From contig CAJCBL010000013.1 of the NCBI GenBank assembly GCA_903960515.1, positions 1 to 32,758 on the forward strand: DNA of 32,758 nt, written 5' to 3'. The stretch comes from an uncultured Verrucomicrobiota bacterium. Lineage in GTDB: Bacteria > Verrucomicrobiota > Verrucomicrobiia > Opitutales > Opitutaceae. Below are positions 1 through 11,444 of this stretch, in pieces. The position numbers and the translations under genes are program-made. Under the pieces are notes generated by a model that worked only from the letters and a program-made list of their open reading frames with translations, did not search any database and was not told where the DNA came from. Numbering within the stretch: the first letter of the stretch is position 1; each line of letters opens with the position of its first letter.

Positions 1-579
1 ACCACCACCGGCGGGGGCATCCGCATGCTCGTCTGGATCAAGGAGGCCCTGGCCAGCGTCTACAAGGGTGCCATCGAGGCCTTCTCCGCCATGGCGAGCA
101 TCCCCTACGTGGGTCCGTTCCTGGGTGCGGCCGCCATGGCCGCCGCCATCGGCGGTGGCATCGCCCTGGTCGCCAAGATCGGCCATGCCGATGGCGGACT
201 CATCACCGGCCCCGGCGGCCCGCGCGACGATCGCGTGCCCGCCATGCTCTCGGCCGGCGAATATGTGATCCCAGCCCACCGGGTGGCCCAGTACGGCCCG
301 GGCTTCTTCGATGCGTTGCGCAACGGCTCGCTCAATCTCGCCGCCCTCTCGGCCAACGCCCAAGGTGCGCTGGCCGACCGTGGCTCGGCCCTGCAAGCGG
401 CCAGCGCTCCGGCCGCTGCGGCCGCCGCCTCCAGCTCCGGTGGAGGGGAAGCGCCCAACGTGCACGTGGCCTTCGGGGCGTTCAACAACCAGCAGCATGC
501 CAAGGACTGGCTAAGCTCACAGGACGGCGAGCGCTACATGGTGAATTTCCTCAAACGCCGAGGCTACAAGAACGGCTGA
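1..579 (+). CDS. Phage tail tape-measure protein, C-terminal part (runs off the left edge)
   Basis: The reading frame is open from the first base, so the ATG at 25 is internal and this is the 3' end of a longer gene. A hydrophobic Ala/Gly-rich stretch (about residues 30-60, counted from base 1) is followed by the block HADGGLITGPGGPRDDRVPA and LSAGEYVIPA. This 'DGG..GPG..R.D.VPA.LS.GEYV' signature is what I know from the end of lambda-like and Mu-like tape-measure proteins, which set tail length and pass through the cell envelope during DNA injection. A low-complexity Ala/Ser/Gly linker and a short charged tail close the protein. The next plus-strand gene is another tail gene, as expected in a siphovirus or gene-transfer-agent tail operon. 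The family call is firm; the total length is unknown. Confidence 0.85.
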   Translation, partial: TTTGGGIRMLVWIKEALASVYKGAIEAFSAMASIPYVGPFLGAAAMAAAIGGGIALVAKIGHADGGLITGPGGPRDDRVPAMLSAGEYVIPAHRVAQYGPGFFDALRNGSLNLAALSANAQGALADRGSALQAASAPAAAAAASSSGGGEAPNVHVAFGAFNNQQHAKDWLSSQDGERYMVNFLKRRGYKNG

Positions 580-715: not shown

Positions 716-3073
716 ATGTTACTAACCACCGTCGACTCCACCGCCTGCTACTTGCTCACCTGCGAAGAGGTGTGGGGCAAGTCCATCTCCGGCGAGTTCG
801 CCACCCGCTCGGCCTCCGATGCCGGGCTCTCCGGACGCGAGCATCGCCGCGCCCTGGCCGCCGAGACCATCCTTTCGCTCAACTACCAGCTCTTCCTGGA
901 AGGTGCCGCAGCCGCGCAACTGCGCGCCGCCCTGCGCGCCTACAACAACCAGCCCATTCTCGCCCCCTTTTGGCCGGCCGACTGCCTGCTCTCCGATCTC
1001 GCGCTGTGCCGCTGGTCTGGCGGGCTGCGCCTCTTCTACGAGCCCGGCATGGGCTCCTGGCAGGTGCTCGCGTCCACCGCTCCAAACTCCTTCACCCCCA
1101 CGGCAGCCTGCCGCGTGGTGCCGCTGCTGTGGAGCCGTTTCGCTAAGCTCCCGGCCCCAGGTAGTGCCGATGGCGACGAGGCCATGGAAGTGGCCATTGC
1201 CGTGGTGGAAAACGGCCCTGCGGCCTACGCGATCCGGCCCACGGGAGTGACGGTGGGCACTGGGCCTGCGGTGGGCGCACTCATCCCGAGGCTCCTCTCG
1301 CTGGTGCCCGACTGGGATTCCGGTGTGACCGCTGGCGGCATCGAGCTGCGTATCGACCGCACTCGCATCGGCTATGGCCGCGCGGAGAACGAGGCGTATG
1401 TGAGCCAAACGCCCCGCCGCCTGCAGAAGTTCACCCTGCCGCCGCTGGGCGATGAGGTGGCGCAACTGGTGGCGCTCTTCCGCGAGGCGGGCACCGTGGG
1501 CAGCTTCTGGGTGCCTGGGGCCTTCGCCGAGACCCGGCTGGCCGCTGCGGTCACCTCCGGGGCCGTGATCCAGGTAGCCGATCCCACTGTACTGGCCGAC
1601 CTCGGCTATATCGCGCTGGCCAGCGGCGATACCGTGGCGGCGTGCAAGATCCTCTCCCGCGCCGGCTCTGCACTCACCCTGCAAACCGCCCCTGGCACCT
1701 TCGCCGCAGGCACGGCCGTGTGCTCACTGCTGCTGGCCCGCTTCACCAGCGCCAAGCTCAAGATCACCTGGGAAACGCCCACCGTAGCCTCCGCCACGGT
1801 GGAAGTCGTGGAGCTGCCCACCGAAACCACCGCGCCTGCGGGGGAAACGGTAGGCACCACCATCGGCGCGCTTGGGGCTCCCTGCTGGCTGTACTCCATC
1901 ACCGATGGGGATCTCACATGGCTCACCACCTCCTACGAGAGCGAGCTCGACGCCGGTGCGCTGGGAGTCTTCACCCCCCGCCCGATTTCGCACGGGGACC
2001 GCACCAGCGAGCTCAACTTGGAGCGCCATGATATGGAGCTTACCGCCGGCTGGTGGGAGGGATCGCCTTTTGAGCGCATCAAGCTGGATCGCCTCGCGCC
2101 CAAGCTCACGGTGCAGGTGTACCGCGGTACAGTCGCCGCGCCCGCCTCCGCCTCGCTCATCTTCACCGGCACCGTGCAAGGCCCGCGCTTCGAGGGCGCA
2201 AAATGCACCTGCAAACTCGCCGGCATGACCTCGCTCTTCGACGTCAAAGGCCCCATCGCCGTAACGTCCACCCGCTGCTGGGCCCCGCTCTATTCGCCCC
2301 CTTGCGGGCTTATCGAGGCCGCGCACGATAGCCCCGCTCAGCTCGCCGCAGCCGGCACGGGAGCTCTCTTCTTCCAGCCAGTAGGTGGGGGAGGCTGGCC
2401 GGCTACTGTGGCCGATCACTACCGCTATGGCTACGCCGAGCGCACGCTGCTAGATGGCAGCAAGCGCCGGCACCGCATCGTGGGTAGCTCGCCGGTGATC
2501 ACCGATGGCTACACGTCGCCCCTTCGTTCCGGGCTCGTCGAGTGGTGGGATTTCCCCGAGGAGAGCGGCGTCCGCTATGGCCAAGCGAATGGCTTGGCGC
2601 TTGATGAGACGGGGGGACAAGCGATGCCATACTCTATTCCCGTCGACCTTCGGCGGCGGGCTCCGGGCGTGTGTCGTTCCGCCGCTTTGGCGGCAGCGTG
2701 TGTCACTTCGGCAGGCGCCCCGGCGTATCCCGATACCGGGCAGATGTCGCTCGCCGGCTGGTTTAGGCTCGGGACCGGGCTCGCCAATCCGACCGGCTTT
2801 TTCATGGACTGGTCGTTCGCCAAAATCGGGGTTGCTCCTGGCGGGGTAATCACAGGGGAGTATGCCATGGCTGCCCCGCACACCATCTCGCCACCCGACC
2901 CTTGGGCGTGGGTATTTGTGGGGTTGTCGGTCAATGTCCCCACCGCCCGCTGTACGCTCTATGTGTCGGGTGCCAGCGCTTCGGGTACTTGTGGCAATTT
3001 CCCCTTCAATTATGGGGGTGCCGGTGTGTTTCGGTTGTTTGGGGTTGGCAACAGTTACCCAAATTATCCCTGA
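716..3073 (+). CDS. BR0599/DUF2163-like phage tail protein with LamG-like domain, broken at its 3' end
   Basis: The protein as encoded has 785 residues. The first ~390 are a phage-tail region I cannot assign more precisely. Residues ~390-590 resemble the DUF2163/BR0599 tail family, including a cysteine pair in TRCWAPLYSPPCGL near residue 518, which matches the family's C-terminal 'C...Y...CG' pattern. From ~605 a LamG/concanavalin-like beta-sandwich starts (SGLVEWWDFPEESG, then MSLAGWFRLG). It stops at GVFRLFGVGNSYPNYP, before the usual final strands with an 'IDEV.IWNRAL' motif. Those strands occur on the opposite strand at 10156-10500, directly before the NlpC gene. I therefore read this as the 5' part of a split gene, with the last codons and stop supplied by the inserted element. 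In gene transfer agents and siphophages the order tape measure, DUF2163, NlpC peptidase, hub is typical. No Shine-Dalgarno precedes the ATG. Confidence 0.7.
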   Translation: MLLTTVDSTACYLLTCEEVWGKSISGEFATRSASDAGLSGREHRRALAAETILSLNYQLFLEGAAAAQLRAALRAYNNQPILAPFWPADCLLSDLALCRWSGGLRLFYEPGMGSWQVLASTAPNSFTPTAACRVVPLLWSRFAKLPAPGSADGDEAMEVAIAVVENGPAAYAIRPTGVTVGTGPAVGALIPRLLSLVPDWDSGVTAGGIELRIDRTRIGYGRAENEAYVSQTPRRLQKFTLPPLGDEVAQLVALFREAGTVGSFWVPGAFAETRLAAAVTSGAVIQVADPTVLADLGYIALASGDTVAACKILSRAGSALTLQTAPGTFAAGTAVCSLLLARFTSAKLKITWETPTVASATVEVVELPTETTAPAGETVGTTIGALGAPCWLYSITDGDLTWLTTSYESELDAGALGVFTPRPISHGDRTSELNLERHDMELTAGWWEGSPFERIKLDRLAPKLTVQVYRGTVAAPASASLIFTGTVQGPRFEGAKCTCKLAGMTSLFDVKGPIAVTSTRCWAPLYSPPCGLIEAAHDSPAQLAAAGTGALFFQPVGGGGWPATVADHYRYGYAERTLLDGSKRRHRIVGSSPVITDGYTSPLRSGLVEWWDFPEESGVRYGQANGLALDETGGQAMPYSIPVDLRRRAPGVCRSAALAAACVTSAGAPAYPDTGQMSLAGWFRLGTGLANPTGFFMDWSFAKIGVAPGGVITGEYAMAAPHTISPPDPWAWVFVGLSVNVPTARCTLYVSGASASGTCGNFPFNYGGAGVFRLFGVGNSYPNYP

Positions 3074-3074
3074 A

Positions 3075-3100
3075 TGTCAACAAATCACTTGATTATGACA
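3075..3100. promoter_or_regulatory. Imperfect palindrome at the transposon left end, upstream of its first gene
   Basis: TGTCA (3075-3079) and TGACA (3096-3100) flank an inner pair ATCA (3084-3087) and TGAT (3090-3093). The site is AT-rich, 23 bases ahead of the first gene, and next to the point where the LamG gene is interrupted. It could be a TnpA binding site at the element's left end or an operator for the three-gene operon. This is inference from symmetry and position only. Confidence 0.35.
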
Positions 3101-3122
3101 ATGACTCGGGTAAGCTCCGGGC

Positions 3123-3644
3123 ATGAAACGGAGCAAGCACGCACCGCCCGACCCAGTGAAGGTCGCCCTTGTATCACTGGAATGGTCTGCGTGGGTGCGT
3201 AGTCGTGAGATGCTGGATGCTATCCGTGGGTGGGTGCTGGCGGTCTGTTCGACTCGCAATCGTGGAATTGTCAGTGTTGTTGATAGCGGCTACGACGTTT
3301 CTACTCACGGCTCAGTGAGTGATGTTCCATTGCAAGCGGAGGATTTTGTGACACTAGGCGACTTATTGGATGCGCCCAATGGGGGCACGGATGCGACGTA
3401 TGTTTCGGGTAGTGGTCTGCGTGCGACGACATTCGAGGACGACCTGATGCACAGGCTATTCGATGTGAAAGCAGAGTGGATCAGCGCCCATTACCCCGAC
3501 ATGATCAACGACGCAACCGATTCACTCACCGATGCAATATGTGACCTTCTGGTGGACCCGATGCAGTTGGTTTACGCAGAGGATTTCCGGGCAATAAATC
3601 TCGATGATTTGCTGGCTGGCCGGCTCAAGGAGTTCCCCTCGTGA
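3123..3644 (+). CDS. Unknown 173-residue protein, first gene of the IS607-like operon
   Basis: I do not recognise this protein. It is mostly polar and acidic in its second half, with no signal peptide, no clear membrane segment and no cysteine motif. Its stop codon overlaps the GTG start of tnpA in a GTGA junction, and an AAGGAG sequence for tnpA lies inside its last codons, so it is translated together with the transposase. Codon use and base composition are less GC-rich than the neighbours. The coupling makes a role in transposition (regulator or partner of TnpA/TnpB) as plausible as passive cargo. It is a real gene by frame, length and coupling; the function is open. Confidence 0.7.
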   Translation: MKRSKHAPPDPVKVALVSLEWSAWVRSREMLDAIRGWVLAVCSTRNRGIVSVVDSGYDVSTHGSVSDVPLQAEDFVTLGDLLDAPNGGTDATYVSGSGLRATTFEDDLMHRLFDVKAEWISAHYPDMINDATDSLTDAICDLLVDPMQLVYAEDFRAINLDDLLAGRLKEFPS

Positions 3645-4249
3645 AACTATCAGCATGGGCCGCACAGGAGGGCATTCACTATCAGACGGCATGGCGGATG
3701 TTCAAGAGCGGCAAGCTGCCCGTGCCAGTTAAACAACTTCCGACCGGGACGATCATCGTGGACGACAACCCGCAGGAGGCGGGCGCGGCACTCTACGCCC
3801 GCGTGTCGTCCTCGGACCAGAAGAAGGATTTGGAGGCCCAGATTGGGCGGCTGGCGGTGTTTGCCGCCGGCCAGAAGCTCACCGTCATCAAGACGGTGGC
3901 TGAAGTGGGAAGCGGCCTCAACGGGCACCGGCAAGGACTCATCCGGTTGCTCACCGATCCGAAGGTCCGCATTATCGTTGTCGAACACCGCGACCGGCTG
4001 ATGCGCTTTGGAGCCGAGTTCGTCGAGGCGACACTTGCCGCCGATGGCCGCAAGTTGCTCGTAGTCGATACGAGCGAACTTAAGGACGATCTGGTGGCCG
4101 ATGTGATTGCCGTGCTCACCAGCATGTGCGCCCGCCTCTACGGGCGGCGCTCGGCCAACAACCGGGCCAAGCGGGCGCTCACGGCCATGCAAGGCGAGGT
4201 GCCTGACGACCCAGCGCATCCGCCAGACGCGCCCGTTAGTTCGCCATGA
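3641..4249 (+). CDS. tnpA: IS607-family serine recombinase (TnpA)
   Basis: The 202-residue protein starts with a MerR/excisionase-like helix-turn-helix (WAAQEGIHYQTAWRMFKSGK, residues 6-25). A short linker leads to the serine-resolvase catalytic domain: YARVSSSDQ (residues 52-60) with the likely nucleophile Ser56, followed by VEHRDRLMRFG with the conserved arginines and the C-terminal helix with ARLYGRR. The DNA-binding domain ahead of the catalytic domain is the IS607 arrangement, opposite to ordinary resolvases. These enzymes cut and rejoin both strands through a phosphoserine link and integrate with little target specificity. The GTG start at 3641 is supported by AAGGAG at 3626-3631 and by overlap with the upstream stop. 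The gene ends in an ATGA overlap with tnpB. It appears complete. Confidence 0.92.
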   Translation: MKLSAWAAQEGIHYQTAWRMFKSGKLPVPVKQLPTGTIIVDDNPQEAGAALYARVSSSDQKKDLEAQIGRLAVFAAGQKLTVIKTVAEVGSGLNGHRQGLIRLLTDPKVRIIVVEHRDRLMRFGAEFVEATLAADGRKLLVVDTSELKDDLVADVIAVLTSMCARLYGRRSANNRAKRALTAMQGEVPDDPAHPPDAPVSSP

Positions 4250-5877
4250 CCATCACCATCGAGACACGCATCGCAGACGATCCGGCAATCTTGCCGGTCC
4301 TGGAGTCGTGCGCGGCGCTGTTCTCGCGGCTGGAACGTCTCTTGTTCGTGGCCCTGTATGCCCGAGGTGAGACATTGAACGCCGCGAAGCGGCGTTTCCT
4401 GACCGAGCACTGCATCACGGCGCGCCACTTCAACGCGATCTACAAGCAGTTGTCGGCCAAGGTTGAATCGTGGCGCGAGGTGCGCAAACTCAACCTCGCC
4501 ACGGTTTCCAAGCAGATCGTAAAGACACAGAAGGCAATCGCCAAAGCCAAAGCCCCCTTCGTTAAACATCAGAAGAAGCGCCGACTGCAAAAGCTGCGGG
4601 ACCGCAAGGCGGGCATCGAGCGCGACCTTGCCGCACCGGTGCCGAGCGTCTGCTTTGGCTCGCGCAAGCTGTTCGGCCAGCAGCACGAACTTGCCGCCAA
4701 CGGGTACGCCGATCACGCTGCATGGCAGAAGGCATGGCGTGCATCCCGTTCCTCATCCTTTTTCGTGCTCGGCTCCGCCGACGAAACAGCAGGCAACCAG
4801 ACTTGCCAATACCGCGACGGTGCCCTGCACCTGCGCCTGCCCGATGCCTTGGGTGGCGAGACGCTGGTCGTGCCGGTCGCCTTCCGCTACCGCGTAGCCG
4901 ACCTGCTGGCGGCGCTCACGCCGACCAAGCAGACGGTCACCAGAGGCCCGCGCAAGGGCAAGGCGGTGACCCGCCATAGCGCGGTCAGCTATCGCTTTCT
5001 GCGCCGCGATAACGGACATTGGTATGCACAGGCTATGTTCGAGGTTGCCGCCGCGCCGATCACCACCAGCGGGCGCAAGGGCTGCGCGGGTATCGACACC
5101 AATCCGTGGGGATTGGCGGTGACCCGCTGCGACCGCTGCGGCAACCCGGTGGACACGCTGGATATCCCGTGGGCCGTTGAGGGACGCAGCGCCGATCAGG
5201 CTAAGGCGTCTATCGGAGACGCCGTGGCTGTGGCCGTGCTTTATGCCGAGAAGCATGGCGTCCCCGTGGCCGTCGAGACACTCGACTTCGACGACAAGAA
5301 GAACGAGGATCGAGGCGCCCGCTGCAACCGGATGCTGTCGGCCTTCGCCTACGCTGCCTTCGCGCAGATGCTGCGCGGGCGTTGCGCTCGGGAAGGCGTC
5401 GAGCTAGTCGAGGTGAACCCGGCGTTCACCTCCGTCATCGGCGCGGCGAAGTTCGCCGCTGGTTACGGCTTGAGCGTGCATCGCGCCGCCGCCCTAGCCA
5501 TCGCACGCCGGGCACTCAATTTTGGTGAAGTTCTGCGCACCCGTCACACCGGGTCCGCCCTCGCGCTACCTGCAAGGAATCGCACGAGGCACGTCTGGTC
5601 TGATTGGCGTCGTTGGGCGAAAGCCCGCCGGCCCCAGCGCAAGGCACCAACCAAACCGAAAGGAAGCCGTGGCTCCAAGCCACCCAATGGCCGGCAAATG
5701 CCGATCCCCTGCCACCCAACGACCGCGCAAGTGGGCGGTCGTGCTGGCAGGGCGACGCCGCGACGCAACGCGGTCCCTGTTGAATGCGGTGCAACTCCGC
5801 AGGCCAATGGCCGTCATCGCTGTTCGGACGGCCTCGTATCCGTTAACTCACACGCACCAAAATGCGCTGTGCGTTAA
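4246..5877 (+). CDS. tnpB: TnpB-family RNA-guided nuclease-like protein (variant RuvC)
   Basis: The protein has 543 codons. The N-terminal ~270 residues are basic and helical, as in TnpB. The RuvC-like domain shows motif I (CAGIDTNPWGLAV, Asp284) and motif II (VAVETLDFDDKK, Glu344). The usual 'CxxC...CxxC' zinc finger and the 'D.NAA.NI' motif III are absent. Instead I see NPAFTSVIGAAKFA followed by LSVHRAAALAIARRALNFGE (residues 409-428), which I recall from TnpB-related proteins with a rearranged active site. Glu428 could be the missing acid, but that is a guess. Active TnpB proteins cut DNA at a site given by an RNA encoded at the element's right end. The last ~105 codons lie over strong RNA-like hairpins and encode low-complexity basic sequence, so the functional protein may end near residue 440. 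The start overlaps tnpA (ATGA). Confidence 0.85.
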   Translation: MTITIETRIADDPAILPVLESCAALFSRLERLLFVALYARGETLNAAKRRFLTEHCITARHFNAIYKQLSAKVESWREVRKLNLATVSKQIVKTQKAIAKAKAPFVKHQKKRRLQKLRDRKAGIERDLAAPVPSVCFGSRKLFGQQHELAANGYADHAAWQKAWRASRSSSFFVLGSADETAGNQTCQYRDGALHLRLPDALGGETLVVPVAFRYRVADLLAALTPTKQTVTRGPRKGKAVTRHSAVSYRFLRRDNGHWYAQAMFEVAAAPITTSGRKGCAGIDTNPWGLAVTRCDRCGNPVDTLDIPWAVEGRSADQAKASIGDAVAVAVLYAEKHGVPVAVETLDFDDKKNEDRGARCNRMLSAFAYAAFAQMLRGRCAREGVELVEVNPAFTSVIGAAKFAAGYGLSVHRAAALAIARRALNFGEVLRTRHTGSALALPARNRTRHVWSDWRRWAKARRPQRKAPTKPKGSRGSKPPNGRQMPIPCHPTTAQVGGRAGRATPRRNAVPVECGATPQANGRHRCSDGLVSVNSHAPKCAVR

Positions 5878-5880
5878 ACG
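5640..5880 (+). ncRNA. Candidate omega RNA scaffold at the 3' end of tnpB
   Basis: The end of the tnpB frame folds strongly. CCCTGCCA (5707-5714) pairs with TGGCAGGG (5745-5752), and inside it ACGACCGC (5719-5726) pairs perfectly with GCGGTCGT (5735-5742). Then TGCGG (5785-5789) pairs with CCGCA (5797-5801), GGCC with GGCC (5802-5805, 5809-5812), and TTAAC...CACGCA (5843-5856) pairs with TGCGCTGTG...GTTAA (5863-5877), the last containing the stop codon. Known TnpB guide RNAs overlap the 3' end of the gene and run into the right end of the element. Position and fold fit; the exact ends and the guide segment cannot be set from sequence alone. Confidence 0.55.
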
Positions 5881-6187
5881 CCTATGGTTTTACGAACGGC
5901 TAAATACGGAGGGGAGAGGTGTAGGAGCCTGCGCGGCGGCGCTTCTGCGTGTAACCCGCAGAAAGTAGAAAAGGGTGGATGCACGGGGAAGAAAAGGGTC
6001 GAGAATCCGTAAACGGATCGACCCAGCGAGTTCTTCGCGGCGCTTCCGCGAGGGGGCCGCGAGCGCTTCGCGACAACTGCCCAGTGGCGTGGAGGCAACA
6101 CCAAGCCTGCGTGAGCTCGTGGACTCCAGGGCCTACCCATCCCAAGCCGACGCCATCGAGGCCGGCGTGGCTGCGATCCCCTGCCCA
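5878..6187. other. Gene-free stretch holding the transposon right end and hairpins
   Basis: No convincing gene lies here. Two clear hairpins are present: TTCTGCG (5943-5949) with CGCAGAA (5957-5963), and GGGTCG...ATCCGT (5996-6010) with ACGGAT CGACCC (6013-6024), the latter with a three-base bulge. Neither is followed by a run of T, so they are weak as intrinsic terminators. They may belong to the 3' part of the TnpB guide RNA or to the element's right end. The phage sequence resumes somewhere before 6188. The GC-rich ORFs that can be drawn through this stretch on both strands show no family features. Confidence 0.4.
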
Positions 6188-6916
6188 TCACGCGAGCTGC
6201 ATAACCTGAAGCCCGTGGATGCGTAGGCGATTCTGGTTATGCGGGGCCCTCACGTACAGATGGGTCAGTCCCGAATCAAGCCCAGCCCCCCACCAGCCTC
6301 CGGTGACGGTACCCGACCCCACCAACGTAGTCTCCAGCATCAATTTGCGCAGGCTTAATACCGATGTATCGGTGAGGCGGGCCGCCGCCTGGCCCTGCAC
6401 AAGGATACCCGTCGCGCTAAGTGTTAGGTCAACCGCCATGAATGCGCAGAATGATGTAGTCCCGGCCGGAGTGAGGTGCTGGGCGTATTGGGTAACCAGC
6501 CCGATCCCGGTTGCGGAATTTGTCACGGATACACCATCCGCTATGGCTCCAAAATTCTGGTTCCCCGCCCACATGACGGAGTAGTTGGGTGTAGCGAACG
6601 ATACTGCGACAGAGCTAGCCACTGCCGACATCAGCCCAACGAAACGAGTGCCCTCATCCCCAACGCACCCGCCGGCGGCACCATTGAAGAGGCCGAGGGC
6701 AAATCGGTCCCGATGATTCAGGTAAGTGACTGTCTCGACCGCCGGCGCGGTGTTATCGTCCGCGGCCAGTCCGATGATCGAGTAGAGCATCCCGATGCGG
6801 ACTCGATGCCACGCAGAGGGCAGCAGGGTGGCGCGGGGATACACCTCGCGCACGGCCATCGCGATGGATGAGCAGGTGCCTAGGTCGGTGGTTTTTGATG
6901 GGTATCCGGTTGCCAT
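6188..6916 (-). CDS. Unknown distal phage tail protein
   Basis: The product has 242 residues and no family I recognise. It is rich in Gly, Ala, Thr and Val with alternating beta-type patterns (for example SVMWAGNQNFGAIADGVSVT), as in phage tail-tip or fibre domains, and has no signal peptide or membrane helix. Its ATG follows the stop codon of the hub gene by a single base (TGATATG), so it is translated from the same transcript without its own Shine-Dalgarno. The position after the hub protein suggests a fibre or receptor-binding part. It is the last gene of the inverted tail block and ends just inside the transposon junction region; nothing indicates truncation. Confidence 0.7.
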   Translation of the reverse strand: MATGYPSKTTDLGTCSSIAMAVREVYPRATLLPSAWHRVRIGMLYSIIGLAADDNTAPAVETVTYLNHRDRFALGLFNGAAGGCVGDEGTRFVGLMSAVASSVAVSFATPNYSVMWAGNQNFGAIADGVSVTNSATGIGLVTQYAQHLTPAGTTSFCAFMAVDLTLSATGILVQGQAAARLTDTSVLSLRKLMLETTLVGSGTVTGGWWGAGLDSGLTHLYVRAPHNQNRLRIHGLQVMQLA

Positions 6917-6917
6917 A

Positions 6918-9473
6918 TCAGGGTGTGTAAGGGGTTGCAGCGCCAGTCCATCCAGTGCCGCCGGTCCAGGTTGTCAGTGCACCGGAGGGGATGCCGGAGA
7001 AATCGTCTATCGCCGTGGGATTTTCAGCGACGTAGAACGGCCCTGAGCCAGCACCCCATCCCCAGCCGGTGGCCTCGCCACTGAGCGGGCCGGTGGAGAT
7101 GCCAGTGAATGCCGTACAGGAGTAGCCGGGAGGGCCGTTGTACTCGCCGCCACCTCCGCCATTGGCGCTGATTTCGATGGCCCCTCCGACAAGAGCGAGG
7201 GTGACGCCGGTCCCGGCGACTAGCCGGCGCAGGCCGAAGGGCGTGGAGGCGATTAGGCTCACACCTGTACCCGAGTCGGAGAGCTCGGGGGGATCGATCC
7301 ACTCGGTGCTCTCCGCAGTGGCGGCGAGCAACTGGCCGGCCACGCCACCATCAGGCAGGCTGGCGCGGGCTGCGAGCTCATCCACAGCGCCTTGCGTGGT
7401 GGATGAGGTCAGGCCGTTGGTGGAGTTGTCTACCGCCACTCCTGCGGCGGTGAGCGCTGTGTAGAGCCCGCTGGGGATGCGGCAGGTGAGGGCGGGCGAC
7501 CACGTGCCGGCATCCGGTTGGCCGGCGAACTCCGCAAGATCCAGCTCGGCGGCGGCGCGGCGCTCGCGCTCGGCATAGGCGGCGGCGGGCGCGTAGAGCG
7601 TGCTTCCACAGTAGCCGCCGGCTCGGAAATAGCCGGTGGCCCCGCTGGTGAGCATGGAATCGAAATCCGCATGGCTGAGGATCTCAAGGCTGTACCGTGG
7701 GATTACCCACCCCTCATACGATGCCCAAGCCGCAGGAAAGCTCCCAGCGGTGAATGCGAGCGCCGCAGTGCCGCGCCGGCCCCGCAGCACGGGCAGATCG
7801 AAAGTTGCCCCGGAGACCAGCGCAGGCGCACCGGAGATACTGAGCACCTCCACTGATTGCGTGGTGGCGGTGCCGGTGATCGTCCCATCCTCCTCCTTGT
7901 GCAGGAGGATAAGCAGAAGCTCGTCGTTGCGCCCCTCTGTGAGCCCTCCGACCCAGTTGCGCAGATAGGAGGAATCTCGCTGGAGATCCACGCCATCCAC
8001 CCCCGAGAGCAGAGCAACGCGCACTGTGGAGGCTCCGGCCGAGAGCGACGCCACGAGCGACACCGGCAGCGCGTAGGATGGTTGCCGGCCAACCAAGGGA
8101 AAATCCCCGGCGAGGGAATCGTCGTAGTAGACGGATACCCCAGCGGAGAGGCCAAGGGGGCGGGCGGCGAGCAGGTGAAGCGGCGGGGGCGATGAGGTGG
8201 CTAGAGCTGGCAGTGCGAGCACTCGGGCCAGGGCGATGGGCGGGACAACCGTGCCGGGCGAGTCGGACGCGGCGGACGCCTGCGCCGTGCCGAAGGCTGG
8301 AGCTGCTGGAGGGTCTATGGTGCCAGAGATTTCGACGGGCGCGGTATCATCGGCGGGATAGACCACCTTGGTGATGCGGATGACCTCGTTGACCGTGGCC
8401 GAGGCTCCGGGTTGGGAGAGCGGCACGCGCACATAGTCGCCGGGCTGGAGAGGCGCGCCGGCAGGAGTGACCGCCTTGCCCCAGCGCACAGAGCCCGACC
8501 ACGAGCCGCCCGTAGCCCCCCGCCGCAGGGCCTCTTGCCCGGCGCGGATCGCTTGATCGGCGGTGATGAGCCAGTCGGCCTTGATCGTCTTTCGGATGAG
8601 GCGGCCGGTTTCCACGATGCCGGCCTGATCGTCCACCGTGAGCTTTGCCTCCTTGTGCACGGCATCGGAGTCGGTGAACTCCACGGCATAGCTGTTGGGC
8701 TGCTCCTCCTGGTTGTCGAAATCGACCTGAGGAACGGCGCTGAAATCGTCGTGCGTGAGTGTGGTGAGACCCACAGGCACTACGCCGCGCAGCCAGCGGC
8801 CGAACTCGATTTGGCCGGCGGCGTTTAGCCGCAGCCAGGCATCGGCCATCCCTGCGAGCGCGGCGAGGGCGGCGCGGCAATCGGTGGCGTCGGCATAGAG
8901 TGGCGAGGCGGCTGAGGCGCTGCGGCCATCGGCCGAGCCGCTGGGGGCATCCCCTTGCACCAGATCGGCCACCGCCTGGGCGCTGGCCGTATCGATGGCG
9001 CTGGCGGGCAGGCCTAGCCACGATGGAGATGTCAGAATCTCGGCTGCGGCTACGATGGGATTGCAGGTGAGCCCGCTGTCCAGCGAGGCGGCGGCGGAGG
9101 CTCCGGTGATGAGCTCCTGCGCCGGGCCGCTGCGCACGACAAACTCGCAGTTGTAGGCGTTTGTCGATTGGCCGTGGTCATAGTCCACGAACACCACATA
9201 CGCTAGGCCGGCGTAGGGCGGATGCTCCTCATAGGTGTTGAGCGTGCTGTCGGCCGGCTGCTCTTCGGTACCCCAGTAAAAGCGGATCGTGCCATACTTG
9301 GTGGAGAGCGCGGCGGGGCCGGTGGATGTGCCACGCAAGAGCGGGCCACTCCACACGGTTTCTCCATTGAGAATGATCGCATCGAGTGCGTAGAGCGGCC
9401 CCAGCCCGATAAGGCACGCGATGGTGCCGTTTACGTGCTTGGTGCCCTGTTGACTGCCTTTGCCTCCACCCAT
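6918..9473 (-). CDS. Phage tail hub / host-specificity (tip) protein
   Basis: This large 851-residue tail protein opens with MGGGKGSQQGTKHVNGTIACL and a region on surface geometry ('LYALDAIILNGETVWSGP'). A middle region (about 170-400) contains EEQPNSYAVEFTD, VDDQAGIVETGRLIRKTIKA and GDYVRVPLSQPGASATVNEVIRITKV, which resembles the putative phage-tail (lambda J / GTA hub) family. A Thr/Gly-rich C-terminus (about 690-851) with 'GTGVSLIASTPFGLRRLVAGTG' pieces looks like a fibre region. The gene lies downstream of the NlpC gene in the same order as in lambda-like tails and gene transfer agents. AGGAGG lies ahead of the ATG at good spacing. The start overlaps nothing and the frame is intact, so this gene was inverted without damage. 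The hub call is by context and general similarity. Confidence 0.75.
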   Translation of the reverse strand: MGGGKGSQQGTKHVNGTIACLIGLGPLYALDAIILNGETVWSGPLLRGTSTGPAALSTKYGTIRFYWGTEEQPADSTLNTYEEHPPYAGLAYVVFVDYDHGQSTNAYNCEFVVRSGPAQELITGASAAASLDSGLTCNPIVAAAEILTSPSWLGLPASAIDTASAQAVADLVQGDAPSGSADGRSASAASPLYADATDCRAALAALAGMADAWLRLNAAGQIEFGRWLRGVVPVGLTTLTHDDFSAVPQVDFDNQEEQPNSYAVEFTDSDAVHKEAKLTVDDQAGIVETGRLIRKTIKADWLITADQAIRAGQEALRRGATGGSWSGSVRWGKAVTPAGAPLQPGDYVRVPLSQPGASATVNEVIRITKVVYPADDTAPVEISGTIDPPAAPAFGTAQASAASDSPGTVVPPIALARVLALPALATSSPPPLHLLAARPLGLSAGVSVYYDDSLAGDFPLVGRQPSYALPVSLVASLSAGASTVRVALLSGVDGVDLQRDSSYLRNWVGGLTEGRNDELLLILLHKEEDGTITGTATTQSVEVLSISGAPALVSGATFDLPVLRGRRGTAALAFTAGSFPAAWASYEGWVIPRYSLEILSHADFDSMLTSGATGYFRAGGYCGSTLYAPAAAYAERERRAAAELDLAEFAGQPDAGTWSPALTCRIPSGLYTALTAAGVAVDNSTNGLTSSTTQGAVDELAARASLPDGGVAGQLLAATAESTEWIDPPELSDSGTGVSLIASTPFGLRRLVAGTGVTLALVGGAIEISANGGGGGEYNGPPGYSCTAFTGISTGPLSGEATGWGWGAGSGPFYVAENPTAIDDFSGIPSGALTTWTGGTGWTGAATPYTP

Positions 9474-9474
9474 G

Positions 9475-9684
9475 TTATTTGCCTCCTTGTTTCTTTGGCG
9501 CTTCTTCCCAGATCCGCTGCCCGTAGAAGGGGCCCATCACATAGCGGCCGGCTACCTTGCGCTGTCCTCGGGCTACGGGGATGGGCCGGCCATCCTCGGA
9601 GACGGAAAAAGATTCGTCGTAGGCGGAGAGCACTTCGGTGCGCGACTCTGCGGGGGTCTGGTCGACTTGTGATTTGTTTCCCAT
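9475..9684 (-). CDS. Small phage tail-module protein (69 residues)
   Basis: This short hydrophilic protein (MGNKSQVDQTPAESRTE...) has no recognised domain. It lies between the NlpC peptidase and the hub gene, separated from the hub start by one base, with AGGAGG about nine bases ahead of its own ATG. Small proteins at this position are common in tail operons; a chaperone or assembly role would be a guess. It contains the local sequence MGPFYGQRIWEEAPKK near its C-terminus. The coupling on both sides and the ribosome binding site make it a real gene. Confidence 0.65.
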   Translation of the reverse strand: MGNKSQVDQTPAESRTEVLSAYDESFSVSEDGRPIPVARGQRKVAGRYVMGPFYGQRIWEEAPKKQGGK

Positions 9685-9685
9685 A

Positions 9686-10159
9686 TTAGAGGGCCTCCTG
9701 TGGGCGGTAAGCGGCGAGGATGTGCGCGGGCACCTGGGGATCGTGTAGGCTCACCACATGCGCGGGGGTGTGGCGGAGCACTTGCAGAGCCTCGGCATCC
9801 GGGCCGCCGAGGTAGAGGGCGATATGCCCGCAGCCCAGCTCGCACAGGAGCACATCGCCGGGCTGGAGGGTATCGGGTAAGAGTGGGTGGGTAAGCGGGA
9901 TGGGTGCGAAATACTCGGGGAGGCTATCCAGCCAGGCACGCATGGATGCGGTATACTCGCGCAATCGGGTGAGGCCCCGAGGCGGGGGCGGTGGGAAGCG
10001 CCAGCCGGCATCGGAGAGCACGGCGGCGGCGAGGCAATGGCAGCTCGCACCACTGCCGCGCACCGCTCCGGATACCACGTAGGGCGTGCCGAGCCACGCG
10101 TCCGCGCAGATAGCCAAGCGAAGCAAGCGGTCGAACTGGGCTGAGAAATAGTCGCTCAT
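9686..10159 (-). CDS. NlpC/P60-like phage tail peptidase
   Basis: The 157-residue protein has the NlpC/P60 layout: WLGTPYVVSGAVRGSG, then a cysteine block ASCHCLAAAVL that sits where the family has 'DCsGLv', then LQPGDVLLCELGCGHIALYLGG with the conserved histidine. The family cleaves peptide links in cell-wall stem peptides; in tails these proteins help the tip pass the peptidoglycan. The usual Asp before the catalytic Cys is not present (the sequence is S-C-H-C), so I cannot say which cysteine acts. The ATG at 10159 is preceded by GGAGG and overlaps the stop of the upstream LamG fragment (ATGA). That ties this gene directly behind the LamG gene, as in GTA-like tail operons. A longer frame to 10306 has no ribosome site. 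Confidence 0.75.
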   Translation of the reverse strand: MSDYFSAQFDRLLRLAICADAWLGTPYVVSGAVRGSGASCHCLAAAVLSDAGWRFPPPPPRGLTRLREYTASMRAWLDSLPEYFAPIPLTHPLLPDTLQPGDVLLCELGCGHIALYLGGPDAEALQVLRHTPAHVVSLHDPQVPAHILAAYRPQEAL

Positions 10160-10500
10160 TTTTTGCCTCCTGCAGGAGATTCCTGCTTGATTGGGATGAG
10201 CGCCGGATTGCTCTTCGGGAAATGGGGAAAGCCCCGGAAGCGGGCCGAATTGCCGAGCGACTTGCAGCGCGCGAACGACTTGTCGCATCCAGGCACCAGT
10301 CGCCAACCCTCCTCCGGGTACGCGGCCGGTGCGGGATTGAGCGAACCCAGAGTGCGCACAACCAGCGAGTCGCCGGGGGTGGCGGTGTCGGCATAGGTGA
10401 CGCCTAGGCCGAAGTTGTAGAGCTCGTCAAAGTCATCAGTGGTAAGGGCGCGATTCCACAGGATCGCCTGGTCAATGCTGCCATAGTGGTTTGAATAGGC
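10156..10500 (-). pseudogene. 3' end of the split LamG-domain tail gene, now inverted
   Basis: The frame encodes NHYGSIDQAILWNRALTTDDFDELYN and ends SPAGGKK. 'GSIDQ.ILWNRAL' is the last conserved strand of a LamG/concanavalin-like domain, exactly the part missing from the gene that ends at 3073. It has no plausible start of its own: upstream (towards 10566) the frame runs into sequence that belongs to the neighbouring chromosome region. Its stop overlaps the NlpC start, so it was the gene directly before NlpC. The true breakpoint is near 10485-10510. A ~90-residue tail after the LamG strand has cysteines (PGCDKSFARCKS) and no family I know. Confidence 0.65.
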
Positions 10501-10577
10501 ACCAGCCCTCCTGCCTTCTGTATTCCGGCCCGTCTCCACCTTGCCACCCTGACCCTCCGCACCCAAGATCCCAAACA

Positions 10578-11444
10578 GTGCGTCGCATCGACTACTTCAA
10601 AGCGTTCCTGAAAAGCGGAGACCACGCTGCCCTCGCCCTCCTCACCTTGGGCGCGACCTTCGCCTCCGGCGTGCCGCTCGCACTCGTCATCGGCGCGGCG
10701 CTTTATGTCGTCGGCTGGGTCTACCTGCCCGACCGGGCGGGCTTCCGCGCCAAGGTCGACGCCCGGGCCGATGCCGCCGATTCCGCCCGCGAAGCTACCG
10801 CCCTGACCGAGCTTCAGGCCCAGCGCGAAAAACTCTTCGCCATGCTCGATACCGCCGCACGCCGCCGCTATGAGGAGCTTGCCCGCGTCTGCACCGATAT
10901 CGAGGAGCAGCTCTCCGCCGCACCTGCCGACGCCGGGTATCCGACCGGCAAAATCGACGGCCTGATGTGGTCCTACCTCGGGCTGCTCGCCACCGAGCGC
11001 AACCTTCAGGCTTATCTCGCCAAGGAGGAGGTCGAGGACTTCCCCGCCCGTATCGCCGCTGTCGAGGCGGACTTGGCCAGGCTCGACGCCGAACTGGCCA
11101 AAACCGCCCCCGAGTCCCCGGCCTACGAGGGCAAGTTCCGCCTTGTCGGCTCCAAGCGCGAGGGGCTCGACGCCGTGCGCCGCCGCCACGAGCAGTTCAG
11201 CCGCTCCCTCGACAACCTCGCCATCGTCCGCGCCGAACAGACACGCATCGAGGAGCAGCTCAAGCTCCTGCGCGCCGACCTCTTCGCCGCGCAGTCCGTC
11301 GGCCAGTTCACCCAGCGTATCAGCGACACCATCGACTCGCTCTCCACCGGCAGCCGTGTAGCCGCCGAGTTGACACCCTCGATGCCCGAGTTGCCGTCGC
11401 TGCGCACCCGCCGCGTAGGATACAAGGTGGGCGAGAACGCCTGA
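10578..11444 (+). CDS. Membrane-anchored coiled-coil protein, first gene of the PspA/AAA cluster
   Basis: I use the GTG at 10578 (288 residues) because the upstream frame comes from the inverted phage junction. Residues ~12-50 hold two short hydrophobic segments (AALALLTLGATFASGVPLAL and VIGAALYVVGWVYLP), so the protein is likely anchored in the inner membrane. The rest, about 240 residues, is charged and helical with heptad-like patterns and long runs of Ala, Glu, Arg and Leu, so it is probably a cytoplasmic coiled coil. The C-terminus has ELTPSMPELPSLRTRRVGYK. It is followed on the same strand by the PspA homologue, and I infer that it recruits or senses for that protein. No family name is known to me. 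There is no Shine-Dalgarno, and the nearby inversion may have removed its promoter. Confidence 0.65.
   Translation: MRRIDYFKAFLKSGDHAALALLTLGATFASGVPLALVIGAALYVVGWVYLPDRAGFRAKVDARADAADSAREATALTELQAQREKLFAMLDTAARRRYEELARVCTDIEEQLSAAPADAGYPTGKIDGLMWSYLGLLATERNLQAYLAKEEVEDFPARIAAVEADLARLDAELAKTAPESPAYEGKFRLVGSKREGLDAVRRRHEQFSRSLDNLAIVRAEQTRIEEQLKLLRADLFAAQSVGQFTQRISDTIDSLSTGSRVAAELTPSMPELPSLRTRRVGYKVGENA

Follow-up and report, generated by a model that had tools for sequence, protein, structure and literature searches.

We analysed a 32,758-nucleotide stretch of DNA (hereafter the window) from an uncultured bacterium of the Verrucomicrobiota (Opitutaceae; contig CAJCBL010000013.1 of assembly GCA_903960515.1) and found that one tail gene of a prophage is cut in two, with its halves on opposite strands. 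The cut lies at an IS607-family element, and the segment that follows the right end of this element (5900 to about 10510, about 4.6 kb), containing the right end of the Mu-like prophage and about 30 bp of host DNA, is inverted. The inversion was probably made by the element's own transposase, TnpA, in whichever order insertion and inversion took place. The features on which this reading is based are the following:

25-579, plus: 3' end of the tape measure gene, matched by PHROGs tape-measure families; the contig starts inside the gene
716-3043, plus: 5' part (776 codons) of the split hub gene, with a putative LamG-like domain inside the BR0599 region, placed by PHROG_778 and homologues; the ORF continues into the element to 3073
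3042-3043, plus: core GG at the left end of the element; all 7 other copies, aligned by program or by eye, have GG there too
3044-5897, plus: IS607-family element of 2,854 bp, with left and right ends common to other copies
3123-3644, plus: 173-residue ORF of unknown kind that lies between the left end and tnpA and overlaps the start of tnpA
3641-4249, plus: TnpA, serine transposase, with about 48 residues ahead of the catalytic domain (Pfam Resolvase, E 4.9e-17)
4246-5877, plus: TnpB, a relative of RNA-guided nucleases (Cas12f1-like_TNB weak and below the cut-off; a 59% identical relative in another copy, L047)
5700-5897, plus: probable guide-RNA scaffold that extends over the 3' end of tnpB (fold z-score -3.0, equalled in stability by 1 of 200 shuffled sequences)
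5898-5899, plus: core GG at the right end of the element, its junction to the inverted segment, by alignment with four other right ends
5900-5932, minus: host intergenic DNA included in the inverted segment; 5921-5932 is one half of a host REP element
5933-6187, minus: inverted right end of the prophage (phage end approximate), with the repeat AGAAAAGGGT at 5967 and 5990
6188-6916, minus: last tail gene, 242 residues, apparently complete
6918-9473, minus: tail hub or tip protein, open frame (Phage-tail_3 just below the cut-off; PHROG_1101, E 2.4e-23; homologues)
9475-9684, minus: small 69-residue ORF between hub and NlpC, from translation
9686-10159, minus: NlpC/P60-like tail protein (NLPC_P60 E 0.04, short of the cut-off; PHROG_329, E 1e-4; homologues in place in 5 loci)
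10156-10509, minus: 3' part of the split hub gene, with the end of the LamG-like domain and then the C-terminal half of BR0599 (Phage_BR0599, PHROG_778)
10507-10515, minus: candidate position of the second breakpoint, with GG candidates (CC on the plus strand) at 10510-10511 or 10507-10508
10578-11444, plus: host gene nearest the prophage on its right side, 288 residues, start codon as in genome G002

The split tail gene

The plus-strand ORF 716-3073 encodes 785 residues, of which the last nine codons are element sequence since the element starts at 3044, and it matches Gp84_N weakly in Pfam (E 1.1e-4, 22.8 bits, cut-off 26). A PHROGs profile search covered positions 11-213 of PHROG_778 with this ORF and positions 228-269 with the minus-strand ORF 10509-10156, which in Pfam also matches positions 40-79 of the 80 of Phage_BR0599 (E 4.2e-8). 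Because consecutive parts of one profile are matched, the two ORFs are halves of one tail gene. Homologues span the join: in 8 of 9 homologous loci one ORF runs uninterrupted to the C-terminus, and in the ninth (L039) there is a gap of 10 N. In the nine loci we found neither separate LamG genes in opposed orientation nor a natural end at the point of the cut. An earlier note on this DNA had proposed that the plus-strand gene is cut inside a LamG domain and continues on the minus strand at about 10500. The split holds; the domain call is a weak one. The plus part alone gave no Laminin_G_3 match in Pfam at E up to 1, and ten joined forms of both halves scored 13.4-21.7 bits, all below the Pfam cut-off of 27.6.

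The neighbouring genes are arranged as the same note had described. The start of the NlpC gene overlaps the stop of the split gene in an ATGA at 10156-10159, and in the eight loci compared between 3 and 5 of the 5 parts were recovered, all of them on one strand and ordered tape measure, Gp84/BR0599-like hub gene, NlpC, hub protein. The 242-residue last tail gene matched no family in Pfam or PHROGs; by eye it resembles a 281-residue ORF that comes after the hub in L043. A second, weak hub match in L039 (E 0.007), a hub match in L051 (E 0.002) and one in G007 (E 5e-4), far from the hub-gene locus of that genome, were set aside.

Prophage identity and host context

The remainder of the prophage lies on a second contig, C112, whose end overlaps positions 1-334 of the window with 5 mismatches in 334 bp, possibly from strain variation or a second copy. 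On C112 we found Portal_Mu (E 3.4e-38) and Mu-like_Pro (E 1.2e-20) with Pfam and the transposase family PHROG_310 (E 3.6e-12), the latter in a piece that has no Pfam match. By these predicted genes, a transposase and Mu-type head genes as in Mu-like transposable phages, the prophage is Mu-like with a siphophage/GTA-type tail module. The siphophage or GTA tail read earlier is right as to the module; because of the Mu-type head genes, a GTA was rejected as the whole identity. No intact copy was found by tblastn of the 785-residue part and the hub against phages, nor by pattern scans of viral and genome contigs, and the relatives found were distant only (21-46% identity, same family and order).

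The usual upstream neighbour of the host gene at 10578-11444 sits on C112, left of the prophage. Five other genomes have this host gene (G014, G007, G002, G006 and G015); the upstream neighbour was read in the first two, where the two flanking genes are adjacent, and contig ends were read in G002. By this gene order the prophage lies between two genes of a host operon. Candidates for a target duplication are GCAGGC and CGCGCA (6 bp each), among many chance matches of 5 bp. The REP family that includes 5921-5932 has 425 matches in the bacterium's own genome (control 0).

The IS607-family element

An IS607-like element had been noted at the first breakpoint, with figures that put it at about 3073-6100; it is indeed there, and mapping against other copies moves its ends to 3044 and 5897. 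The left end is common to seven other copies (L047, L053, L055 and L066-L069) and the right end, GAACGG, to four of these (L047, L066, L068 and L069), and GG stands at both element-host junctions, as in the IS607 family. The left core lies in a row of four G, so a shift by one base to 3041-3042 is possible. TnpA has the IS607-type layout, with the Resolvase domain at residues 49-179 of 202 behind 48 N-terminal residues that form a putative DNA-binding domain; its relatives are about 54-75% identical, and none was found among viral contigs. The pairing with a TnpB that has a putative structured RNA at its 3' end is also a feature of the family, and 5786-5903 is 71% identical to L047. An Rfam search of 3000-10700, scaffold included, gave no match, and a terminator scan of 5800-6300 gave one weak match only, inside the element. 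The 173-residue ORF matched nothing in Pfam up to E 1 or in PHROGs up to E 0.01, and no end-to-end inverted repeat of at least 14 nt was among the matches listed for the element. The DNA on its two sides no longer stems from a single target, and the halves of the tail gene join in frame without need of a target duplication.

The inversion and its breakpoints

The two ends of the prophage provide independent evidence that the right end is inverted. In 44.5 kb of C112 and the 32.8 kb of the window, AGAAAAGGGT is confined to one pair of copies near each prophage end; the spacing within a pair is 23 bp, and all four copies are on the plus strand. The words of at least 9 bp common to both ends (9 listed) likewise each have the same strand at the two ends. 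A shared 15-mer between the ends arose by chance in 19 of 20,000 shuffles; chance 11-mers common to the end regions are no rarity (147 of 2,000). The repeats may be transposase sites, which in a Mu-like phage are expected in inverted orientation, and as assembled they are direct. The prophage is accordingly a broken member of the Mu-like phages, whose ends would face each other as expected were the segment not inverted. The earlier note had proposed an inversion of about 4.4 kb up to a chromosome junction near 10500; the repeats bear out the inversion, its length becomes about 4.6 kb since the element ends about 200 bp before the point which the shorter figure implied, and the second breakpoint falls in host DNA, about 30 bp past the prophage.

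One breakpoint of the inversion coincides with an element end, and the breakpoints and the three junctions have no word of at least 9 bp in common. Both observations make cutting by the IS607 serine transposase a better explanation than breakage at random or a misassembly caused by repeats. GG occurs at 2 of 12 codon boundaries near the second breakpoint, and its presence there argues only faintly for TnpA. The best LamG profile score came from a join one residue longer than the first GG candidate (21.7 against 19.5 and 17.0 bits). This join would require moving the left core by one base, in disagreement with the other element copies, and the GG candidate would then be 10514-10515. Searched against the bacterium's own genome, the element gave one match (40 of 96 loose candidates scored) and the junction queries one match each, with no alternative allele; one further search among these scored 40 of 56 loose candidates. 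The host left flank and 10500-10506 have the 7-mer CACCAGC in common, which we discounted as probably due to chance. We also dropped three short matches of 5890-6230, two in G002 and one in G019. The one of these three that was read, L057, appears within an ordinary coding gene.

Discussion

In the history proposed here, a Mu-like transposable prophage would have lain between two host operon genes when an IS607-family element inserted at a GG within the LamG part of the hub gene. The 4.6 kb from its right end to a second GG, located in the host DNA about 30 bp past the prophage, would then have been inverted, the most likely cutter being the element's serine transposase, which would have joined the right end to this second GG. 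Insertion followed by inversion was also the earlier proposal, and both events are supported by the element ends and the end repeats. The reverse order is as economical: the element could have entered the host DNA right of the prophage first, in opposite orientation, and TnpA could have joined its left end to the LamG GG, inverting 3044 to about 10510. It would give an identical final sequence with GG at the junctions, nothing specific speaks against it, and we give both orders equal weight. Alternatively, homologous recombination between two opposite copies, located in the gene and next to the prophage, could have inverted the intervening DNA before one of them excised precisely. IS607 is proposed to leave as a circle with the host DNA resealed (PMC4058570), so a lost copy could leave GG only; yet the genome search (40 of 96 loose candidates scored) gave a single element match and one more step is needed, making this route unlikely.

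We consider it very improbable that the assembler made the inverted orientation. The assembly is a draft of 379 contigs and overlapping contig ends differ, but the junctions lack the shared words noted above, fall on the element ends, and are each matched once in the genome. The presence of a serine recombinase next to inverted tail genes also recalls the programmed, phase-variable tail switches of the Gin/Cin type, which such an enzyme runs. We rejected this explanation, the most improbable of all: the segment ends have no inverted repeats of at least 9 bp as an invertible segment would, a second version of the split gene is absent from the window and none was found in the genome search, the recombinase belongs, as its transposase, to an element present elsewhere, and the prophage's own end was carried along.

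As a result of these events, the hub protein would lack its C-terminal part and the NlpC, hub and tip genes would be separated from the tail operon. Given wrongly oriented ends, separated tail genes and a shortened hub, the prophage should not transpose, package or build a tail. The other tail ORFs are still open and the damage amounts to one insertion and one inversion, so it is probably recent. According to PMC6188088, subunit rotation in the paired-end complex of IS607 TnpA would yield intramolecular inversion instead of transposition; in the literature consulted we found no demonstration that IS607 TnpA makes inversions of this kind. We tentatively suggest, with slightly more doubt than belief, that an IS607 serine transposase might use a single end and a distant GG on the same molecule to make repeat-free, base-precise inversions. 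As a side effect the TnpB guide, which in TnpB systems is the variable sequence beyond the conserved right end (PMC11061315), would be switched to a new target, in this case the host DNA adjoining the prophage.

Among serine recombinases the IS607 transposases are unusual, and their strand exchange is still a model (PMC4058570, PMC6188088). A natural inversion from one transposon end would be a testable by-product of the reaction and could help to choose between models. Our results also suggest a way in which one small element can ground a transposable phage: it splits a tail gene and reverses one end of the phage. We see in it a clean example of DNA rearrangement by such elements that breaks a resident prophage, and not a revolutionary one.

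Mu-like transposable phages with siphophage tails, of the B3/D3112 type, share with this prophage a transposase, a Mu-like portal and protease and the order tape measure, Gp84/BR0599, NlpC, hub. Unlike them it has a LamG-like insert in the hub gene and an inverted right end, and the two tail proteins tested had no match in the phage collection. The element resembles IS607, ISC1926 and IS1535 in its TnpA recombinase domain behind an N-terminal region, the TnpB that follows and the GG at both ends, and differs from them in the extra ORF ahead of tnpA and in the neighbouring DNA being inverted from the element end. At 2.85 kb it is longer than most family members, for which 1.62-2.40 kb is quoted (PMC9956272). 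In Helicobacter pylori, IS607 adjoins inversion breakpoints, with three region-specific ones in table 5 of PMC8002640; as given there these are chromosomal and linked by association, whereas here the breakpoint can be placed at the element end. Like the grounded (defective) prophages described in PMC6379469, this prophage is held in place by damage, and unlike them its damage consists of one insertion and one inversion, with the other tail ORFs open.

Results

The following features of the window are considered.

716-3073, plus strand: ORF with the 5' part of the split Gp84/BR0599-type tail hub gene
3044-5897: IS607-family element (tnpA and tnpB)
3123-3644: 173-aa ORF without assigned function, between the IS607 left end and tnpA
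4246-5877: TnpB
5900 to about 10510: inverted segment
ending at 10156, minus strand: ORF with the 3' part of the split gene
10578: host gene

Pfam placed Gp84_N in the plus ORF at residues 388-532, weakly and below the cut-off (E 1.1e-4), and positions 40-79 of the 80 of Phage_BR0599 in the minus ORF (E 4.2e-8). The tail assembly family PHROG_778 was matched in order and without overlap, positions 11-213 by the plus ORF and 228-269 by the minus ORF. A search of 57 genomes including its own gave nine homologous loci in eight other genomes. Eight of them (L007 included) have a single ORF through to the C-terminus, and in the ninth, L039, both halves lie on one strand with only a run of 10 N between them. 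These single ORFs and the consecutive PHROG_778 parts bear out the proposal of an earlier note that the two ORFs are one gene. Tail order was compared in eight loci, L007 being left out, for the end of the tape measure, the hub gene, its 3' part, NlpC and the hub protein. The window's 3' part was matched by tblastn in L003, L039, L043 and L045, and for the others visual inspection of the ORFs showed a similar C-terminal ending. The parts found (three to all five, the full set in L003 only) keep one strand and the same order in 8 of 8 loci, so that the window's opposed arrangement is the derived state, and the operon-like succession of tape measure, hub gene, NlpC and hub that the note had assumed holds in these relatives.

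The LamG-like domain is an extra of this phage, set into the BR0599 region; relatives have a short stretch at its place, as judged by eye from their ORFs. With the plus part alone, LamG went unmatched even at an E-value limit of 1. Ten joined forms match Laminin_G_3 with 13.4 to 21.7 bits, none reaching the cut-off of 27.6. The highest scores belong to joins that differ from the GG placements at the breakpoint by no more than one residue.

The IS607-like element seen at the first breakpoint was confirmed by the resolvase domain of TnpA (49-179, Pfam) and by mapping its ends against other copies. Its left end is common to seven of these (L047, L053, L055, L066-L069), with a GG at the place matching 3042-3043. 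The right end ...GAACGG is common to four (L047, L066, L068, L069), which then diverge, and its window equivalent is 5898-5899; L053 lacks this end, L055 reaches its contig end before it, and L067 is left out of this comparison. The copies of genome G309 were aligned by eye. The shared ends with their GG thus place the element at 3044-5897. IS607 is described as inserting at GG without duplication (PMC6188088), with GG as its overlap dinucleotide (PMC4058570). TnpB is 59% identical to a relative in genome G026; the sole TnpB relative found among named genome contigs belongs to an uncultured Opitutae bacterium. The host itself is probably a member of the Verrucomicrobiota. On folding, the tnpB 3' end is more stable than shuffles (z -3.0; 1 of 200 as stable), as a guide-RNA scaffold would predict, and no Rfam family matched it. 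The last catalytic motif of TnpB, SVHRAAA by eye, seems unusual, presumably having no clear acidic residue at the expected place. Between left end and tnpA, L047 and L053 have ORFs of their own, which look different by eye. In G309 there are at least four related IS607 copies (L066-L069), sharing 88-99% identity where aligned, and a stop codon interrupts three of the four matched tnpA stretches.

The rest of the Mu-like prophage lies on another contig of the genome, C112, where its transposase matches PHROG_310 (E 3.6e-12) and no Pfam family, accompanied by Portal_Mu (E 3.4e-38), a Mu-like protease (E 1.2e-20), a terminase, a head protein and a long ORF that weakly matches tape-measure proteins. 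At its end C112 overlaps window 1-334 over 334 bases, with 5 mismatches and running in the same direction. The prophage therefore begins near 16.9 kb of C112 and extends to the window's breakpoint near 10.5 kb; the mismatches suggest strain variation or mixture, or that the assembly contains a second copy. In both genomes examined (G014 and G007), the host gene at 10578 is immediately preceded, on its upstream side, by a neighbour of 547-558 aa, and in the phage's own host this neighbour sits on C112, followed by the prophage. About 33 bases of host DNA, including half a host REP element, separate the element from the prophage end. This REP-like palindrome family has 425 matches in the host genome within 2 mismatches, against 0 for the reversed pattern, and the prophage seems to have integrated into a palindrome of this family or between two of them. 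Two contigs of G002, from the same genus, end at the intergenic spot of the prophage here (start of C191, L051:1; end of C100, L074). REP-like sites lie at the prophage flanks at 5921-5932 and C112:16872-16892 (L073).

The end sites of Mu-like phages face each other. Here the end repeats are direct, as inversion of the right end predicts: AGAAAAGGGT is present twice at each end (C112 17014 and 17037; window 5967 and 5990), with no other copy on either strand in these 77 kb, and the nine words of at least 9 bp listed as common to both end regions all agree in strand. The two ends share a 15-base match (of 20,000 mononucleotide shuffles, 19 gave such a match in the same orientation and 7 in the opposite one); an 11-mer common to both ends arose by chance in 147 of 2,000 shuffles. 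The direct repeats, together with the one-strand tail genes of relatives, support the suspected inversion of the downstream tail genes.

Discussion

One breakpoint is at one or other end of the element, whichever the order of events. At the other, frame-compatible GGs lie at 10510-10511 or 10507-10508, GG occurring at two of 12 nearby codon boundaries; the alternative at 10514-10515, which gives the best LamG placement (21.7 bits), needs the left core, the GG at the element's boundary, shifted by one base. With this combination of breakpoints TnpA probably made the inversion, and would have done so by connecting one of the element's ends with a GG at another site. Recombination between repeats, or misassembly, is argued against by the three junction regions, which share no word of 9 bases, and by junction-spanning queries, each with one match in the genome. 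Two element copies may also have recombined, with precise loss of one afterwards, a possible but longer route. If TnpA acted directly, the element may have started out either inside the LamG gene or next to the prophage. Of the history proposed earlier, insertion into the LamG gene and then inversion, the inversion from the element end stands, while a start beside the prophage fits equally.

Judging from the sequence, the hub protein would be truncated at its C-terminus, the operon would no longer include the NlpC, hub and tip genes, and the prophage ends would be wrongly oriented. The remaining tail genes of the inverted segment (NlpC, small ORF, hub, last gene) still have open frames, so the event is probably recent. 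In the parts available of a mostly open-access literature on IS607 with inversions, breakpoints, and serine recombinases and TnpB guides, we found no inversion with a breakpoint exactly at the end of an IS607 copy; in H. pylori, IS607 is reported close to three inversion breakpoints that are region-specific (PMC8002640).
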